A DNA stretch of 41,957 nucleotides from a virus. Every line of letters starts with the position of its first letter. Position 1 is the stretch's first letter. The DNA is taken from the IMG/VR virus record IMGVR_UViG_3300025425_000048, positions 1 to 41,957 of that record, one strand, 5' to 3'. A program made the translations under genes and the position numbers. Below, piece by piece: positions 4,804 to 39,882 of this stretch. The notes beneath the pieces were generated by a model that was given only the letters and a program-made list of their open reading frames with translations, did no database searches and was not told the origin of the DNA.

Positions 4804-4944
4804 ATGACAGCTGTTGCAGCTGACAGTCGAAAATCTCGGCGCATCCGAGTCGTGACAACGGAGACTAGGTTTATTGACCGGCATGGTCGAGAAATTGGGG
4901 AAGGGGTTGTCCCTATTGTAACAACAACCTATGAATATCTTTAA
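4804..4944 (+). CDS. Small hypothetical protein (46 aa)
   Basis: The frame encodes a short basic protein containing SRRIRVVTTETRFIDRHGREI. The start at 4804 is preferred because GAGGAG at 4792-4797 lies six bases before it and it begins after the uvsX stop at 4784. An in-frame ATG at 4753, with GGAG at 4740-4743, would give 63 aa but overlap uvsX by 32 bases. No domain is recognised. Confidence 0.6.
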   Translation: MTAVAADSRKSRRIRVVTTETRFIDRHGREIGEGVVPIVTTTYEYL

Positions 4945-4963
4945 TATAAACGGAAGCGAAAAA

Positions 4964-5233
4964 ATGAATATTGGTGATGAAGTTGTATATAACGGCGACT
5001 ATGGTGACATTCTCTGTGGGAAGATCACTGCTATTGGTTCTGACAAGGACTCGTATGATGACATTAAGTTGGAAGACGGGGTGTTTATGTACAAATCCAA
5101 GAAGCTAAAGAAGTATGTTGAGTTCAAGGAGAAGTCTCTGCAATCTGTTTATATCGAAATTACCCGCCAGAGCACGAGAGGTGATAAAAATTTAGACTAC
5201 ATTCTTCCCAATGAACTCATTGGTAATGTATAA
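4964..5233 (+). CDS. Small hypothetical protein (89 aa)
   Basis: The N-terminus MNIGDEVVYNGDYGDILCGKI resembles the short beta-barrel (SH3/KOW-like) folds that begin with a G-D-x-V strand, but this is only a pattern. The rest is charged, with KSKKLKKYVEF in the middle. The start at 4964 has GGAAG at 4952-4956; an in-frame ATG at 4931 would add 11 residues and overlap the previous gene. The TAA stop at 5231-5233 lies inside a late-promoter box (5229-5236). Function unknown. Confidence 0.7.
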   Translation: MNIGDEVVYNGDYGDILCGKITAIGSDKDSYDDIKLEDGVFMYKSKKLKKYVEFKEKSLQSVYIEITRQSTRGDKNLDYILPNELIGNV

Positions 5234-5236
5234 ATA
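5229..5236 (+). promoter_or_regulatory. T4-type late promoter box (TATAAATA)
   Basis: A perfect TATAAATA. In T4 this box spans about -13 to -6, which would place the transcript start near 5242, two bases before the ATG at 5244. The stop codon of the upstream gene is embedded in the box. There is no ribosome site before 5244. Confidence 0.65.
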
Positions 5237-5243
5237 ACCAACC

Positions 5244-5789
5244 ATGTTAGTAAAAAGAACAAATCATTCCTATGATCTGAATAGATGTCTAGTTGAATGG
5301 GAGAATATACAGTCACGATTCGGTGATAATCTGTGGTCAAAACCACTGGGTGAGAACCGCCAGACTTGTATACAACGTAGTAACGAGTCTGGCGGTAATC
5401 CATTTACCGATGGAACTGGTTCGATATATGGAAACAATCCAGTCAAGGACCATATTTTAATATCACAGTCTGACTACATTATATTAAATGATATATACGA
5501 GGGTACAGTTTTTGCTGATGTGATACGGGATATGAATGGTGAGCGTTCTAGAGTTATGCATATGTCATCTCACAGCACCTATTCCGTACATAAAGATAAA
5601 TCCCCTCGTTATCATTTAGTTCTTATAACTAATCCAAATGCTTATTTTATTTTTCCTACACTGAATGAGATAGTTCATATACCTGCTGATGGTTGTGTCT
5701 ATGAGGTTGATACTACACTACCACACAGTTTTGTTAATTGTGGTAAAGAAAGGGATCATCTAGTGATGTCAAAAAAGTTAACTTCATGA
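5244..5789 (+). CDS. Possible Fe(II)/2-oxoglutarate oxygenase, Asp-hydroxylase type
   Basis: The C-terminal half has the residue pattern of aspartyl/asparaginyl beta-hydroxylase-like enzymes. HKD (H116, D118) could supply two iron ligands, followed by RYHLVLITNP at 122-131, a D-G turn at 149-150, and LPHSFVN with H161 as the third ligand. R170 in ERDHLVM could bind 2-oxoglutarate. The N-terminal 100 residues are not recognised. The protein is 181 aa. It has no ribosome site and directly follows a late box. Its TGA overlaps the next gene (ATGA). The substrate is unknown; a non-enzymatic cupin-like fold is the alternative. Confidence 0.6.
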   Translation: MLVKRTNHSYDLNRCLVEWENIQSRFGDNLWSKPLGENRQTCIQRSNESGGNPFTDGTGSIYGNNPVKDHILISQSDYIILNDIYEGTVFADVIRDMNGERSRVMHMSSHSTYSVHKDKSPRYHLVLITNPNAYFIFPTLNEIVHIPADGCVYEVDTTLPHSFVNCGKERDHLVMSKKLTS

Positions 5790-5962
5790 TAAGATATAGA
5801 ATTATAGAAAAACAAATGGTAACAGAGGGTATGTCTGAGCTCGAAGCTGCTGAAATGCTTATGGCTTTGCGAGACAGTGATCCAAAAAAGTTGTTTGATG
5901 TAGAACAGTATAATTGGTCAATTGATGGTAAACGTCTAGGGCGTGATCCAGACCTTCATTAA
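5786..5962 (+). CDS. Small hypothetical protein (58 aa)
   Basis: The ATG at 5786 overlaps the preceding stop (ATGA), and the frame ends TAA at 5960-5962. The protein begins MIRYRIIEKQMVTEG and contains a predicted helix SELEAAEMLMALRDSDP followed by a polar tail ending LGRDPDLH. An internal ATG at residue 11 is an alternative start. No domain is recognised. It sits between a putative oxygenase and the gp5-like spike gene and ends just before a late box. Confidence 0.7.
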   Translation: MIRYRIIEKQMVTEGMSELEAAEMLMALRDSDPKKLFDVEQYNWSIDGKRLGRDPDLH

Positions 5963-5967
5963 ACTCT

Positions 5968-5975
5968 TATAAATA
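5968..5975 (+). promoter_or_regulatory. T4-type late promoter box (TATAAATA)
   Basis: A perfect TATAAATA whose predicted transcript start, six bases after the last A, coincides with the ATG of the gp5-like gene at 5981. No ribosome site is present between the box and the start. Confidence 0.65.
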
Positions 5976-5980
5976 GTCCC

Positions 5981-7492
5981 ATGCAAGATTTCATGGGTAA
6001 AGATGGTTTCAGTTGGTTTGTTGGTGTAGTTGAAGACAGGAATGATCCTGCTAAGATTGGTAGGGTTCGTGTTCGTGTACTTGGGCGACACAATGAGGAT
6101 TTAACTCAGGTTAAGACTGCGGATTTGCCGTGGGCGCATGTTATGCACCCCGTGACTGATCCATCTATGCAAGGACTTGGACATACCCCCTCGTTTTTGA
6201 CGCAAGGTTCGTGGGTTGTCGGGTTCTTTAGGGACACTGAGGCACAGCAACCTGTTATCATGGGTACACTACCGGGTGTGGCCGCATCACAAGCAGATAA
6301 CTCTAAGGGATTTAATGATCCAAGAGGACTTGATACCGATATCGGTATTCAAAAAGCATATGCATCTGAACATGGTCCAACTTATGGGCCATATCCTGGC
6401 CCAAGGAAAAGTGGCCACGGCTCATCGTTTGCAAGTCATGACGCTGTTGGCGAGTCTGATACAAACAGACTTGCCCTTGGTAAAATCTCAGAAACACACA
6501 ACTCTCTTATTAATCGCAGAGCTCAGAGATTGCATGGTGATCCTGTCGAGGCTAATGACGAAGATTCTAGCGGTACAGGTATTCCTACCGCAACCAAACC
6601 CTATATAAAAAGTCTCTCTGTTGAAGCAGAACAAGAGACACGGGGGTTTTGGGAAGAACCTAATTCAAAAGGAATTGTTGAGGATGCTAATCCATACATT
6701 TCTGCTACTTATCCATACAACCATGTATTTGAATCTGAGTCTGGTCATATCACGGAAGTGGATGACAGTCCCGGTGCTGAACGGATGTTTCGTCAACATA
6801 TGGCAGGAACATTTGAAGAGATACATCCTGATGGTTCTGTTGTCACCAAGATCATTGGAGATAAGTATGAGATTGTTATTGGTAGTGAGAACATTGTCAT
6901 CAAGGGATCGCAGAACATCACTGTTGAGGGTTCAGTAAGAGAACTTATCAAGGGGGATTATATACAAGAGATTGAAGGAAACTTCTATCAGAAGATTCAC
7001 AAGAACCATCGTGTTAAGGTTGGTGTCGGTCAAGATGCGGCTGGGAAGCCCCTTGGTGGTAATCGTGAGGAAGAGATTGTTGGCAACTATGGTTATAATA
7101 TCAACAAGGATGTTCATGGCAGAGTTGGTGGCGATGCAGTCATTATTCACGAAAAATCTAAATCACAAATCGTTGGTGGAATGTATCAACTTTCGGTTTC
7201 TGGTAAGGAGATGGATTCTAATCTAACCGCTGCTGGTATTTTTATAACAACTGGTTCTAATTATATGTTGGGTGTAACAAAGGATTTGTCTATATCAACT
7301 ATATCAGGCATCGTGTCTATGAAGTCGGGTAGCACACTCAATATAAAGTCTGATTCTGCAATGACTATTAATCCAGAGACAAGTCTCTCACAAATAGTTG
7401 GTACTTCATGGTCAAGTACCACAGGAACAACATGGGCTCACACATCAACAGGCAATCTAGAGATTAACGGCGCAAGGATTGACTTGAACTAA
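5981..7492 (+). CDS. 5: gp5-like baseplate hub/tail spike protein without lysozyme domain
   Basis: The protein forms the central spike below the tail tube. The N-terminal 110 residues are the OB-fold domain of gp5 (WFVGVVEDRNDP, IGRVRVRVLGRH, GSWVVGFFRDTEAQQPVIMG). After a Gly/Ser/Asp-rich linker, residues from about 260 to the end form the repetitive C-terminal beta-helix, with strands such as KYEIVIGSENIVIKGSQNI and repeated G-x-Y/N-x-x-x-I turns. T4 gp5 carries a lysozyme domain between these parts (about 575 aa); this 503-aa protein has none. A cell-wall peptidase gene lies three genes downstream and may take over that role. The start is 5981, or the ATG at 5993; neither has a ribosome site. 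The stop overlaps the next ATG (TAATG). Confidence 0.9.
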   Translation: MQDFMGKDGFSWFVGVVEDRNDPAKIGRVRVRVLGRHNEDLTQVKTADLPWAHVMHPVTDPSMQGLGHTPSFLTQGSWVVGFFRDTEAQQPVIMGTLPGVAASQADNSKGFNDPRGLDTDIGIQKAYASEHGPTYGPYPGPRKSGHGSSFASHDAVGESDTNRLALGKISETHNSLINRRAQRLHGDPVEANDEDSSGTGIPTATKPYIKSLSVEAEQETRGFWEEPNSKGIVEDANPYISATYPYNHVFESESGHITEVDDSPGAERMFRQHMAGTFEEIHPDGSVVTKIIGDKYEIVIGSENIVIKGSQNITVEGSVRELIKGDYIQEIEGNFYQKIHKNHRVKVGVGQDAAGKPLGGNREEEIVGNYGYNINKDVHGRVGGDAVIIHEKSKSQIVGGMYQLSVSGKEMDSNLTAAGIFITTGSNYMLGVTKDLSISTISGIVSMKSGSTLNIKSDSAMTINPETSLSQIVGTSWSSTTGTTWAHTSTGNLEINGARIDLN

Positions 7493-9749: not shown

Positions 9750-10187
9750 ATGGGTGCTAAAGATGCATATACTGACGCTACATATCAAGGTGAAAGCCGT
9801 GCAGCTCAATTGTATTCTGATATTGATTTATTCTTTGGACCAAAGACGGGAACGGGTGATGTTAATAAGGTAATTAATTTTACGGCAGTCAAGCGATCTG
9901 TAAGAAATCTTATCCTAACCAACTTCTATGAGAAACCCTTTCACCCAGAGATTGGTTCTGGTGTAAGAGATATTCTATTTGAACCTATGACGCCAATCAC
10001 TGCATATGTTCTAACTATGAAGATCGAAGAGGTGATTGAGAACTTTGAACCAAGGGCTAGACTCGTTGGAGTTCGAGCTCAACCTAATCTTGACAACAAT
10101 GCATATAATGTTACTATTGAGTTTTATGTTGTTAACGCCCCAACAGAACTTGTGAATATGGAAGTTCTATTAGAGAGATTACGATAA
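9750..10187 (+). CDS. 25: gp25-like baseplate wedge protein
   Basis: A 145-aa member of the GPW/gp25 family, found in baseplates of contractile tails and type VI secretion systems, where it holds the wedge core together with gp6 and gp53 and links it to the sheath. The core motif is clear: AVKRSVRNLILTN, then EKPFHPEIGSGVRDILFEP at about 61-79, and IEEVIENFEPRARLVGV. T4 gp25 is 132 aa. The TAA overlaps the gp6 ATG (TAATG), which matches the known partnership of the two proteins. Confidence 0.95.
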   Translation: MGAKDAYTDATYQGESRAAQLYSDIDLFFGPKTGTGDVNKVINFTAVKRSVRNLILTNFYEKPFHPEIGSGVRDILFEPMTPITAYVLTMKIEEVIENFEPRARLVGVRAQPNLDNNAYNVTIEFYVVNAPTELVNMEVLLERLR

Positions 10188-18447: not shown

Positions 18448-18462
18448 TAGGAGTATATAAAT

Positions 18463-19752
18463 ATGTTTGGGTATAATTTGATTGGCGGTGTTGGTTCTCC
18501 AACACCAACAGTACATACTAATGACATGACATCTAGTGGTGATTTAGGATTTTTTGCTGCGGGCGGCGATTGGTTATATGATGCAGATGAAACTAATTCA
18601 CAGGATGATGATAATTGGATTATGATGGTTCGTCCATACAACCCAGCTAACTATGGAGGTACTCCAATTGCATATGATACTTCAGATCACTCACTCAGTG
18701 AAGGTAGTGATTGGGTATTATATAATCAAGGGGGGAGTAATCATTCAGGCGGAGGCACGCAATTAAGTTTAGATAGGGCTTTCTGGGGGATGCGGTCTTC
18801 TACTAGTGGTTATACTGCCAAAAATTATATGACTGATCTAGCAAATGACTTAGGTAGTTTTACTAATAACGTCGCCGTTACCACCCAAACGGAACGCTAT
18901 TCAGCCGGGCACCGTCTAAATGATACAACTGGAATTTTCTATGCTAAGTCTAATTCTCAACAACAAATTATTGGTACTTATAATGGTGGAGCGACTACAA
19001 CGATTGCTGCAACTCTTGGTGATGGGCCCGCACAGTATATGTGGGACTTCTCATCCCCCGGCGGCGGAACGGAGTACGCTAATTTAGGTACTGCAAATAC
19101 ATGGGTATATTTAAATACTAATAACAGTGCAACTTTTGCTGAAGGCACTACAAGACTTGATATGAATCATTGTGTGTGGGATGGCAGCGCTGGAACAGCT
19201 GTTACTAAAGTTGACAGAGATAGTGTGGTTACATTACCAACACACACTGGAAGCACACTGGCACCTACTATTTTAGCCACAACTTGGGGTAATATACTTA
19301 TTCATTTTGATACTTCAAATCCCGGCAATTCAGTAGTATACCCTGTTACTTGGTCAGGCACATCACCGACCATAGGCTCTGCCGTTCCGTGGGCGGGGGG
19401 GACTCAAATACCATCTCATGAATGTTATTTAAAGGGGTTAGATGGAAGCGGTATTGTTCATAATGGTACAAAATACCAATGTGGTCAAGATAGAAGTGGT
19501 AGGAACGTCGATTTATATAGAACGTGTAGAATTTATACATCTGGAAGTGATCTTAAATTAGATACTATTGACATTGATTTTTCTAAACCAAATGGTGAAC
19601 ACACGTTAAGAGTTCGTCATAGAGGAGTTGTAACATTTTCATCAACAACCGATGCCTCTGTGTGGCCGCTATTTATGGCAAACAATAAAGATTTGGGAAT
19701 TTGGCACAAAGACACTGGAAAGTTTCATTACATTGAAAACGCATATTATTAA
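18463..19752 (+). CDS. Hypothetical virion protein, possible receptor-binding (429 aa)
   Basis: Between the fibre gene and gp8, transcribed with both. The protein is rich in Gly, Ser, Thr, Asn and Trp, with many short beta-type segments (DWLYDADETNSQDDDNWIMM, GTYNGGATTTIAATLGDG, WGNILIHFDTS) and few Lys or Glu, which suggests a beta-structured surface protein such as a fibre tip or propeller. I recognise no family. AGGAG at 18449-18453 lies nine bases before the ATG; a TATAAATA box overlaps the ATG and so cannot serve this start. Its lack of the shared fibre repeats suggests a separately acquired module. Confidence 0.7.
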   Translation: MFGYNLIGGVGSPTPTVHTNDMTSSGDLGFFAAGGDWLYDADETNSQDDDNWIMMVRPYNPANYGGTPIAYDTSDHSLSEGSDWVLYNQGGSNHSGGGTQLSLDRAFWGMRSSTSGYTAKNYMTDLANDLGSFTNNVAVTTQTERYSAGHRLNDTTGIFYAKSNSQQQIIGTYNGGATTTIAATLGDGPAQYMWDFSSPGGGTEYANLGTANTWVYLNTNNSATFAEGTTRLDMNHCVWDGSAGTAVTKVDRDSVVTLPTHTGSTLAPTILATTWGNILIHFDTSNPGNSVVYPVTWSGTSPTIGSAVPWAGGTQIPSHECYLKGLDGSGIVHNGTKYQCGQDRSGRNVDLYRTCRIYTSGSDLKLDTIDIDFSKPNGEHTLRVRHRGVVTFSSTTDASVWPLFMANNKDLGIWHKDTGKFHYIENAYY

Positions 19753-28106: not shown

Positions 28107-28337
28107 ATGTCAGAATATTTTAAAATAGAGAATGAAGATAATTATGTTAAGTCTTCTAATGGTAGTCATGGTATTATAAATAACAATGTGAACGCATATG
28201 AGGTTGCAAAAAAACGTGCGGGGGAAGCACAAATACAGAGGGATGAGGTGCGTGAAACAACCAGAGAAATTAATATTTTAAAATCTGAGATGCACGAAAT
28301 TAAATCCCTGTTACAACAATTAGTGAAAGAGAACTAA
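28107..28337 (+). CDS. Small coiled-coil virion-region protein (76 aa)
   Basis: The protein starts MSEYFKIENEDNYVKSSNGS, then has a long charged helix from about 30 to the end (YEVAKKRAGEAQIQRDEVRE, INILKSEMHEIKSLLQQLV) with heptad spacing, so a coiled coil is likely. The ATG at 28107, one base after the preceding stop, is preferred over an in-frame GTG at 28083 inside the upstream gene. Similar short proteins occur beside baseplate genes in marine T4-like phages (from memory); the role is unknown. It ends one base before the fibre gene. Confidence 0.75.
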   Translation: MSEYFKIENEDNYVKSSNGSHGIINNNVNAYEVAKKRAGEAQIQRDEVRETTREINILKSEMHEIKSLLQQLVKEN

Positions 28338-34472: not shown

Positions 34473-35595
34473 AGATTATAAATGGTTTTGTCCAGAACCC
34501 TTTACAAATACTATGAACTCTATAACTGGTTCAGGTGAAATGAATATACCTTGTTGTCACATTAACAGCAATAAATGGAATAGGAAAGTTGAAGGTCAAG
34601 ATATAAAATCCTTTCGAAAAGAATTTATAAATGGTGGTGGACCTTTAATTGATAATGTTTGCACTAGGTGTATTAAACAAGAGGAATCTGGAAACAAAAG
34701 TTTTAGACAAAATCACTTAGATAATTTCAATGGTAAGTTTGCACATAAGAAAAAAGAACTAGAAGAGAATTTAGACAACCCGCCATTACTTACTATGGAA
34801 TTTAGAGCGCAAGATAATTTTTGCAATTTGAGATGTAACATGTGTAAATCGATACTGTCTTCTGGACTTGCCAAAGAAAACTTGGCATTGGGAAAACCCA
34901 TTCATCATAGATTGAATAATAATCCTCGTTTTAAAAAAGAATCTAATATTCCTAACTTAGAAAACTTACTAGAGCTGAAACTTGTTGGTGGAGAGACATT
35001 AGCAATTGATGATAACTATAAGGTCATGGAAAAATGTCCAGCTGATGTGGTAGTCCATATCACAACCAATGCAACTGTAACTCCTAAATTTAACGATAAG
35101 GATATATTTGACTATATTTCAAAATTTAAAGAGATACATATGAATGTGTCTATAGAATTTTGGGGAGATAAAAATAACTATCTACGTTTTCCATCAAAGT
35201 GGGATCGTATTATGGACAATGTTAAAAAGTTTAAATCTTTTGATAATTGTATAGTAAATTATCACGCTACAATAAATGCTTTAAACGTAGGTTATATGTT
35301 AGAAATAATTGATAATGCTGATTGTCCAATTGCAATAGACAATTTAGTATATGGTGAGAATGAAATTTATTCAATCGTTTCGGTTCCTCCAGAGATAAGA
35401 GAACAATACTTAGAGAAGTATTATCGTGATTATAGGAAAGAAACAGATACTATAATCACATACCTTGAAAATATTGAATATGATAAATCTCAAATGATTC
35501 GTATGTTACAAGACATAAAGGATAGAGATAAATATCGTGGAACGTGTTTAACTGATTTGTTTCCAGAATGGAGAAACTATTATGAAAAGCTTTGA
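34456..35595 (+). CDS. Radical SAM protein with N-terminal cysteine-rich (twitch-like) domain
   Basis: The protein has 379 aa from the ATG at 34456; an in-frame GTG at 34429 would add nine. The C-x3-C-x2-C motif that binds the 4Fe-4S cluster for SAM is CNLRCNMC, with C123, C127 and C130, followed by a KLVGGETL segment typical of the SAM site. Upstream, FCPEPF (C12), MNIPCC (C33, C34) and CTRC (C69, C72) could bind an auxiliary cluster, as in radical SAM proteins with an N-terminal twitch domain. Such enzymes modify peptides, sugars or cofactors. It overlaps the preceding oxygenase by 17 bases and the next gene by 14. Confidence 0.8.
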   Translation: MTKKLEDYKWFCPEPFTNTMNSITGSGEMNIPCCHINSNKWNRKVEGQDIKSFRKEFINGGGPLIDNVCTRCIKQEESGNKSFRQNHLDNFNGKFAHKKKELEENLDNPPLLTMEFRAQDNFCNLRCNMCKSILSSGLAKENLALGKPIHHRLNNNPRFKKESNIPNLENLLELKLVGGETLAIDDNYKVMEKCPADVVVHITTNATVTPKFNDKDIFDYISKFKEIHMNVSIEFWGDKNNYLRFPSKWDRIMDNVKKFKSFDNCIVNYHATINALNVGYMLEIIDNADCPIAIDNLVYGENEIYSIVSVPPEIREQYLEKYYRDYRKETDTIITYLENIEYDKSQMIRMLQDIKDRDKYRGTCLTDLFPEWRNYYEKL

Positions 35596-36877
35596 TGAAT
35601 TTGTTGCATTGTGGGAGAAGGAAACAGATAAGGTAAAAATTAAAAAAGAATTTAAACATATGTTGTTTCTGGTGGTTTATCCTGACAAACTAAAATGGGA
35701 TTTTGGAATAGAGAAACAAACTCAAACTACAACATTTATGGTTACAGGGGGTGCTACTGGAGCATCAACAGGCCACGATGTTCGTTTTTGTTATAGGAGC
35801 GAAGTTCACGATCTTCTTTTAAAGTGTGATCATACCCATGCTATGATTGTATCAGTTGGTATGGTATTCGATATGGTGTCCGGTGGGCCTGAAAAACGAG
35901 TTACACCAATAACGGACTTCTATGATTTTGTAGAGAGCGATCAGTTTTGCAAAGCTCATATTATGGCAAGGCCAAAACATAAAGCATATTTTCACCATCA
36001 ACATATCAATTTAAATCTTACGGTATGGAAGGATATCGGTTCTCCTGATATGTCTAAGAGATATGCTGTTGTTAAACGATCCCCCGATAATTACCATGAT
36101 GACTATACCCCGCCATGGATAGAACTAGAGGGGATGCCTACTGTCACAAATTTTACGAATGCTGAAAGATCGAGAAAATCCTTTTCATATTATAGAGATG
36201 ATCAAACTGCATTTTGGAAAGACCTTGACAATGTAGATATGAACGATTATTATTTTAGTAGATTTATGACGAGAATACGAAAACAATTTTATATAGAGAA
36301 TACAGAAAGAGTTGGAGAACTACCTACAGAAAAATTTGATATTATATTTTCAACTACAGCTGGTTATCGTGCTGCACTACTTGCAGACCAATTAGAGTTT
36401 GACGGTGAAGTTGTGTTGTTTGATTACTGTCAAGAAAATTTAGATATAAAACAAATGATAATAGAAATGAATATGTCTTTGCCAGAAATTAACTCTTATG
36501 GTAAAATGATCGACCATGATATGGTACTTCCTGATTCTATCGCAAAACAATCTGTAAAAAGTATGGGTTCTTTTGAAAATTTAAGGCAATTAGAAGAAAA
36601 AATGGAAAGGGACTATGACATTGAGTATTGGTTGATGGATTTAATATCACCAAACTATGATAGAATTTTGGAAAAAATTCAAGGTAAGACAGTATTTTTC
36701 GACGCAACTAATATCTTTTGTTATCACATGTCACACGCATATTATACTCTAGATGAATTGGTCAATTCGTATAAAAAATTACGAGATGTTTTGACATCAT
36801 CTAATGGAACCTTTTATAGAGGCACTTCACCAACCAAACAAAAAATAGATGCATGGGTATCCAAATGGATATCGTAG
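35582..36877 (+). CDS. Hypothetical protein of the enzyme island (431 aa)
   Basis: No known domain can be named. The N-terminal part (KHMLFLVVYPDKLKWDFGIE, HTHAMIVSVGMVFDMVSGG) and the central part (FDIIFSTTAGYRAALLADQL, EFDGEVVLFDYCQENLDIKQ) look like two alpha/beta folds, the second with a Rossmann-like strand-loop-helix. DIEYWLMDLISPNYD and HAYYTLDELVNSYKKLRDVL follow. It could be a transferase acting with its neighbours. It overlaps the radical SAM gene by 14 bases and the next by 13 bases. Confidence 0.7.
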   Translation: MKSFDEFVALWEKETDKVKIKKEFKHMLFLVVYPDKLKWDFGIEKQTQTTTFMVTGGATGASTGHDVRFCYRSEVHDLLLKCDHTHAMIVSVGMVFDMVSGGPEKRVTPITDFYDFVESDQFCKAHIMARPKHKAYFHHQHINLNLTVWKDIGSPDMSKRYAVVKRSPDNYHDDYTPPWIELEGMPTVTNFTNAERSRKSFSYYRDDQTAFWKDLDNVDMNDYYFSRFMTRIRKQFYIENTERVGELPTEKFDIIFSTTAGYRAALLADQLEFDGEVVLFDYCQENLDIKQMIIEMNMSLPEINSYGKMIDHDMVLPDSIAKQSVKSMGSFENLRQLEEKMERDYDIEYWLMDLISPNYDRILEKIQGKTVFFDATNIFCYHMSHAYYTLDELVNSYKKLRDVLTSSNGTFYRGTSPTKQKIDAWVSKWIS

Positions 36878-39240: not shown

Positions 39241-39882
39241 ATGGAAAAATATGGTTTTGTTTATATTTGGAGAGATCGAAAGCATAATAAATATTATATA
39301 GGATGTCATTGGGGAACTGAAGATGATGGTTATATTTCATCATGTAAATGGATGAATAGAGCTTATAAAAGAAGACCGGAAGATTTCAAAAGAAGAATAT
39401 TGAAAAAAATATATACTTCTAGGGAAGATTTATTAAACGAAGAATATTATTGGTTGCGGTTTATAGATGATGGTGAACTTAAAGTAAAATATTATAACAC
39501 TATAAATAAAAAATTTAATCATTGGTCTGTTTCTGAAAGAGACAGTGTTCGAAAGACTATTAGTGAAAAAACTAAAGAAGCAATGTGGAGAGATGATGTA
39601 AGAACTAACTATATCAAAGGTATGAAAACCAGAGATAATAAAAGCGCAGACCCAGAAGTTAGAAGGAAAAGGTCTATATCTATGATGGGTAAGAATGTGG
39701 GCAAGAAACGCACAGAAGAATCCAAGAGAAAGATGAGTAAAGCAAAGATGGGCACGAAACACACAGAAGAACACATAAGGAAAAAAATGGTAGGTATTAG
39801 CAAACTCTATGGGTGCCCTAGTTGTGATAAAAAAATGAATGTTGGGAACCTCACAAAACATATTAAGATTTGCAGAGGATAA
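39241..39882 (+). CDS. GIY-YIG homing-type endonuclease
   Basis: A 213-aa protein. The GIY-YIG nuclease domain occupies residues 1-80: GFVYIW at 5-10, KYYIGCH at 17-23, and a conserved Glu in LNEEYYWL (E67 or E68), with basic KRRPEDFKRRIL between. Two NUMOD3-like DNA-binding segments follow (about 137-155, and TEESKRKMSKAKMG plus HTEEHIRKKM at about 158-183). A C2HC zinc finger ends the protein (C192, C195, H207, C211). These freestanding enzymes of the Seg type cut relatives that lack the gene and spread by repair. It interrupts the gp13-gp14 pair and looks richer in A and T than its neighbours. Confidence 0.9.
   Translation: MEKYGFVYIWRDRKHNKYYIGCHWGTEDDGYISSCKWMNRAYKRRPEDFKRRILKKIYTSREDLLNEEYYWLRFIDDGELKVKYYNTINKKFNHWSVSERDSVRKTISEKTKEAMWRDDVRTNYIKGMKTRDNKSADPEVRRKRSISMMGKNVGKKRTEESKRKMSKAKMGTKHTEEHIRKKMVGISKLYGCPSCDKKMNVGNLTKHIKICRG

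Follow-up and report, generated by a model that had tools for sequence, protein, structure and literature searches.

Late boxes at the oxygenase-like and gp5-like genes

The viral sequence IMGVR_UViG_3300025425_000048 was analyzed over its positions 1 to 41,957 nucleotides (nt); this whole stretch is referred to as the window. Its gp5-like baseplate hub/central spike gene and an oxygenase-like gene upstream of it are each preceded by the phage T4-type late promoter box TATAAATA, which ends only a few nt ahead of the ATG (Table 1). The gp5-like protein matches PF06714 (Gp5_OB) with E = 4e-20 and phrog_430 with E = 2e-91. A search of genome contigs with gp5, aimed at finding the host, returned no relative.

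Table 1. Features between the upstream open reading frame and the end of the gp5-like gene (window coordinates).
Feature	Position	Strand	Basis
Late box TATAAATA before the oxygenase-like gene; holds the stop codon of open reading frame 4931-5233	5229..5236	+	
Predicted transcription start: A5241 (3-nt leader ACC) or C5242 (exact T4 geometry)	5241..5242	+	predicted
Oxygenase-like gene, 181 amino acids, no Shine-Dalgarno sequence	5244..5789	+	profile match, Shine-Dalgarno scan
Small open reading frame, 58 amino acids; overlaps the oxygenase stop and ends 18 nt upstream of gp5	5786..5962	+	
Late box TATAAATA before gp5	5968..5975	+	
Spacer GTCCC	5976..5980	+	
Predicted hairpin CCCAUG-CAAGAUUU-CAUGGG over the gp5 start on read-through RNA	5978..5997	+	predicted structure
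Predicted late transcription start, first base of the gp5 ATG	5981	+	predicted, T4 geometry and purine peak at +6
gp5-like baseplate hub/central spike gene, 503 amino acids, no Shine-Dalgarno sequence	5981..7492	+	Pfam and PHROG matches

The 8-bp box has 12 exact copies on the plus strand of the whole window and none on the minus strand, and gp5 and baseplate wedge genes lie downstream, as on a late strand. The distance d was defined as the number of nt between the last base of the box and the ATG of the downstream gene. It is 7 for the box at 5229-5236 (ATG 5244, 8 positions past the box end) and 5 for the box at 5968-5975 (ATG 5981, 6 positions past the box end). A scan for Shine-Dalgarno (SD) sequences detected none for either gene, and these values agree with a previous interpretation of the window (the sequence-only reading), which had reported the two boxes, their ATGs 8 and 6 bases away and the missing ribosome sites. 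That reading also held that most late boxes stand 20-34 bases from an ATG with a ribosome site. This holds for seven of the 12 exact boxes (9413, 9723, 16883, 20031, 31793, 38339, and 39200), which are followed by an ATG after 20-34 positions and whose genes each have an SD of 4 nt or more; it does not hold for the boxes at 18456, 28175, and 39501, which fall in neither spacing class. The box at 18456-18463 overlaps the ATG (TATAAATATG) of an open reading frame (ORF) of 429 amino acids that has its own SD (AGGAG at -10), and under T4 geometry the overlap means that this box cannot serve that ATG. The boxes at 28175-28182 and 39501-39508 lie within a small ORF ending at 28337 (MSEYFKIENED...) and a homing-endonuclease-like ORF (39241-39882, phrog_314), respectively, and may be chance matches or internal promoters. 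SD sequences are also missing from 13 of 32 other listed window genes, most of which abut or overlap the upstream gene. A scan for sigma-70 promoters gave no excess of matches, and the combined promoter and terminator scan gave a single minus-strand terminator-like match (5997-5978), which is the inverted repeat at the gp5 start and has a poor T tract. An Rfam scan of positions 4900-6200 gave no match.

The conservation of the gp5 spacing was measured by scanning IMG/VR for the box followed by a gp5 start within 30 nt, which retrieved 57 viral contigs. The distance is exactly 5 nt in 56 of the 57, at protein identities down to 64% and without indels in the spacer; the contigs represent 37 distinct contexts, 36 of which have the 5-nt spacer. 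The spacer sequence itself varies (GTCCC, GTTCC, GTCTC, and GTCCT) with a pyrimidine always present at the last three positions, and the gap between the upstream stop codon and the box differs in length among the gp5 relatives while the spacing from box to ATG stays fixed. The base at +6 after the gp5 box is an invariant A, a purine as at T4 late starts. The one exception is contig L064 (41% identity), which keeps the box and has a 24-nt spacer, 19 bases longer, carrying AAGGAG.

The T4 late box occupies positions -13 to -6 relative to +1 (PMC1524935). This geometry places the predicted +1 at 5242 for the oxygenase-like gene and at 5981 for gp5, that is, two bases before the first ATG and exactly at the second, and recomputation reproduced the positions given by the sequence-only reading. 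A purine is found at +6 after 71% of leadered boxes in T4, 84% in Syn9/S-PM2/KVP40, 87% in HTVC008M/Mosig/Melnitz, and 80% in the window. The +6 purine peak therefore suggests that the T4 start geometry holds in this lineage, in which case a box with d = 5 would put +1 on the A of the AUG. The g9446 and g9750 (gp25) genes of the same relatives retain both a box and an SD, with leaders of about 20-26 nt, so the promoter and SD systems coexist in the same phages. An SD is present at 41 of 53 leadered genes versus two of 21 d = 5 genes in HTVC008M, Mosig, and Melnitz. A/U-rich sequence upstream of a start codon helps initiation without an SD, and on this general ground TATAAATA and its variant CTAAATA could be translation-initiation elements and not promoters. 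This explanation is very improbable. The same box stands 20-34 nt before SD-led genes with the +1 geometry kept, L064 retains it despite the 19 extra bases with an SD, and the 12:0 strand bias is at odds with it.

A profile built from 18 oxygenase orthologues matches a beta-hydroxylase of known structure (PDB 7v4f, E = 2e-23), and 10 of the 18 match PF05118 weakly (best E = 0.0014). The AlphaFold model has low confidence (pLDDT, predicted local distance difference test, 58), so the assignment was made from the sequence profile and not from a fold search; the profile indicates that the 5244-5789 product is related to Asp/Asn beta-hydroxylases. Residues H116, D118, and H161 are invariant in all 18 orthologues and resemble the HxD...H iron site of those enzymes.

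The box-to-ATG distance is exactly 7 nt in all 22 oxygenase orthologues examined, even where the upstream gene differs. Spacing in related phages, a comparison that the sequence-only reading had proposed, is constant at the oxygenase-like gene and, apart from L064, at gp5. Only the window and its nearest kin have TATAAATA as the oxygenase box; in the remaining orthologues it is TCTAAATA, CCTAAATA, or ACTAAATA. The base at +5 past the box is an A in 22 of 22 orthologues and the window has a C at +6, which displaces the purine by one position from the T4 start. The invariant A therefore makes a 3-nt leader, ACC, likelier than 2 nt and suggests a near-leaderless oxygenase late mRNA. The earlier proposal of leaderless late mRNA is well supported for gp5, where spacing, purine peak, and recurrence agree, and also for the oxygenase-like gene, with a probable leader of 3 nt in place of 2. 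Contigs G005 and G007 carry the CTAAATA + 7 nt + ATG module directly before a homologue of the 58-amino acid ORF and not before an oxygenase gene.

Start residue of gp5 and the predicted hairpin

The alternative gp5 start is Met5 (ATG 5993), which would leave a 12-nt leader (AUGCAAGAUUUC). Met5 is invariant in the leaderless gp5 clade, as such a start would lead one to expect. ATG 5993 has no SD, and three observations favor residue 1: the AAGGAG of L064 lies at the normal distance from residue 1 and not from residue 5, the distant relatives L073, L074, and L078 carry I or L in place of Met5 and start further upstream, and the predicted +1 coincides with residue 1. Translation from Met5 is quite improbable on this evidence. 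The sequence-only reading had asked whether the protein starts at residue 1 or 5, and the comparison of sequences makes residue 1 the likelier answer. Synonymous constraint is also stronger over the first gp5 codons than anywhere else in the gene (rank 1 of about 270).

RNA folding was predicted for read-through transcripts from upstream promoters and for leaderless late transcripts. CCCAUG (5978-5983) pairs with CAUGGG (5992-5997) on the read-through RNA, and a late start at 5981 would drop CCC, which is half of one arm. Across 29 gp5 contexts, the gp5 AUG has a mean predicted unpaired probability of 0.02 when the RNA is read through and 0.84 when it is leaderless; the corresponding values for a set of 130 other leaderless genes are 0.41 and 0.70. 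An equally closed AUG occurs in 0.55% of 2000 versions with resampled synonymous codons and spacers. The six pairs are kept in 13 of 13 distinct sequences; the changes are one-sided, to G-U, and shuffles are uninformative. The gp5-type hairpin is lost in L064, where another, stronger predicted hairpin of 13 bp covers both SD and AUG (L064:4969-5010; z = -5.2, 0 of 200 shuffles). The 5' arm of this hairpin would also be cut by the predicted late start, and the AUG of the late RNA is still predicted to be largely paired (0.21 unpaired). No hairpin comparable to that of gp5 was predicted at the oxygenase start, where the mean AUG unpaired probability is 0.43 on read-through RNA and 0.49 on late RNA. 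The odds that the gp5 hairpin acts as a timing switch are put at about even from these structure predictions.

Recurrence of the close spacing in marine T4-like phages

Ranked by UvsX and gp6, Melnitz (which infects OM43) and HTVC008M (which infects SAR11) are among the cultured phages nearest to the window phage; Mosig, also a phage of SAR11, follows on the gp6 comparison. These neighbors place the window phage near T4-like phages of marine heterotrophs and not near T4. In HTVC008M, 12 boxes are followed at exactly 5 nt by an ATG that opens a reading frame, where 0.25 would be expected (P = 8e-17), and 16 of its 17 boxes with spacings of 5-8 lie at annotated coding sequence starts, including gp2, gp3, gp4, gp25, gp29, and gp48. 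These six genes and gp13 appear leaderless or nearly so in HTVC008M, and its capsid, sheath, and tube genes have SD leaders. The d = 5 excess is weaker in Mosig (6 boxes, P = 4e-7) and Melnitz (3 boxes, P = 0.003) and was not detected in T4, Syn9, S-PM2, or KVP40; the exact pattern TATAAATAN5ATG was not found in P-SSM2, phiM12, or Aeh1. In pelagimyophage contigs, the box stands 5 to 9 nt from the start of the gp25 orthologue. The claim that leaderless late mRNA would be unusual for a T4-type phage is correct with respect to T4, KVP40, and the cyanophages and does not extend to HTVC008M, Mosig, Melnitz, or many IMG/VR contigs, where the arrangement recurs. The conserved promoter design recurs in marine T4-like phages of heterotrophic bacteria and is not peculiar to two genes.

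IMG/VR was scanned with TATAAATAGTN3ATGG and with the other spacings, and the fractions refer to sites among the matches listed and not to totals. An ORF of at least 60 amino acids opens at 114 of the 121 d = 5 sites listed (94%); the same is true of 40% of the listed sites with d = 6 and of 21% with d = 9. The largest d = 5 families among the matches listed are the DNA end protector (gp2), gp25, the tail tube, a tail-fibre assembly family, and the head-tail adaptor. Chance placement without meaning, fixed by shared descent, can draw on the window alone, which has little power (P = 0.09 for one d = 5 box). It is ruled out by the conservation of spacing across relatives, down to 64% protein identity without spacer indels, and not by the window alone. 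Two further points against chance are that the arrangement recurs at unrelated genes of HTVC008M and Mosig and that 94% of the listed d = 5 sites lie at ORF starts; chance retains a negligible probability.

The sequence-only reading had suggested that leaderless mRNA holds spike synthesis at a low level. This proposal found no direct support, and d = 5 boxes also precede tail-tube genes. The tail-tube protein is a high-copy component of T4 tails. Low output of low-copy proteins was considered as the purpose of the arrangement and fits HTVC008M; it was rejected as a general purpose because the d = 5 sites among the IMG/VR matches listed include the tail tube (phrog_45). Timing control by the gp5 hairpin is, with moderate confidence, the better proposal.

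HTVC008M is annotated with a late sigma factor (gp099) and a late transcription factor (gp197). A phage-encoded ribosomal protein, bS21, was located in HTVC008M (91228-91431), Mosig (9983-10132), Melnitz (35461-35619), and the clade contig G001 (41328-41486), and the same check did not find it in T4, Syn9, P-SSM2, S-PM2, KVP40, or contig G006. Work on other phages has connected bS21 with late expression (PMC9723584). A correlation of bS21 with d = 5 boxes is speculation, given the few genomes and their shared ancestry. A broader idea is that this marine T4-like lineage re-engineered late expression around leaderless mRNAs, with +1 on the start codons of many tail, neck, and packaging genes, and that the phage bS21 may tune ribosomes late in infection; it is tentative and somewhat doubtful.

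Proposed mechanism and relation to known systems

These results point, with a probability of about 0.82, to both sites being T4-type late promoters that give a leaderless gp5 mRNA and a near-leaderless oxygenase mRNA, as part of a recurring marine T4-like design that at gp5 is probably coupled to the hairpin. It is very likely that the late mRNAs are leaderless or nearly so, and we infer the 5' ends and leaderless translation from the promoter geometry. The late sigma system would place +1 at the start codon or no more than about 3 nt from it, and ribosomes would recognize the 5'-terminal AUG of the leaderless late mRNAs. On read-through RNA from upstream promoters, CCCAUG would fold onto CAUGGG and hide the gp5 AUG; RNA from the late promoter would lack CCC and expose it. 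If the hairpin has this regulatory effect, late transcripts would be the main source of the gp5 protein.

Several observations weigh against this interpretation. The transcript starts in all these phages are placed by box geometry alone, and the late sigma factor gp55 was not found on the 42-kb window fragment. The cultured phages with the same arrangement are not close kin (UvsX 73-81% and gp6 46-51% identity). The gp5 helix has only one-sided changes and so no compensatory evidence in the form of double changes; its pairing is partly forced by the coding sequence, the z-score of the window hairpin is only -1.7, and the AUG of L039 is mostly paired even without a leader. The upstream stop codons lie 10 and 18 nt before the oxygenase and gp5 ATGs, so that re-initiation on read-through RNA could also yield the proteins. 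The boxes would in that case be late promoters mainly for downstream genes, with gp5 and the oxygenase translated mainly from polycistronic RNA. Some plausibility comes from the 13 other window genes without an SD, most of which touch or overlap the gene before them and have to depend on coupling. It is nonetheless unlikely, as the upstream-frame stop of L097, L101, and L106 is roughly 50-65 nt away with the 7-nt module spacing kept, the gp5 AUG is predicted to be almost fully paired on read-through RNA, and an exact 5- or 7-nt spacing has no reason if the promoter serves downstream genes only.

The proposed late promoters with a start at or next to the ATG agree with the T4 late promoters (gp55/gp33/gp45) in having TATAAATA at -13 to -6, no -35 element, a +1 purine 6 nt past the box, and late structural genes behind it. 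They differ in the distance to the ATG, which is mostly about 20-35 nt in T4, KVP40, Syn9, and S-PM2 (13-35 in T4, with an SD in most T4 cases) and 5 or 7 nt without an SD in the window phage. The T4 genes e, soc, 49, and I-TevI are translated only late; a hairpin hides the start on early RNA and a late promoter lies inside or next to that hairpin (PMC3014915). The gp5 locus would resemble the gene e type in that a predicted hairpin hides the start on read-through RNA and the late start cuts its 5' arm. It differs in that the late RNA would have no SD or leader and transcription would begin within the hairpin, right at the AUG. HTVC008M, Mosig, and Melnitz (pelagimyophages/methylophages) share the d = 5 late boxes at gp2, gp3, gp4, gp25, gp29, gp48, and other genes. 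The cI mRNA of phage lambda is leaderless, and leaderless mRNAs are known in mycobacteria (PMC4633059). The late RNAs described here are alike in being predicted to begin with AUG and to have no SD, and would differ in arising from a phage late sigma-type promoter that is repeated at numerous late genes within a single phage.

For pelagimyophages, one published study describes its prediction of late promoters as unsuccessful (PMC7029224), and the portion consulted of a second study lists late promoters without remark on leaderlessness (PMC9004378). A full-text literature search with partial coverage returned no statement that T4-type late promoters make leaderless mRNAs. Little has been read so far of how the abundant T4-like phages that infect SAR11 and OM43 control their late genes. 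A box 5 nt before an ATG is a simple rule that locates late promoters and fixes gene starts together, and it predicts leaderless late messages in many marine phages. Whether part of the late program runs on leaderless mRNA is directly testable in the culturable HTVC008M or Melnitz.

CTAAATA is the late box of phage Aeh1 (PMC1524935; PMC2988020), and this variant is also seen in relatives of the window phage. The late box of g9446 is of the Aeh1 type, CTAAATA, in L049 and L051 instead of C/TATAAATA, a change that falls within one phage lineage.

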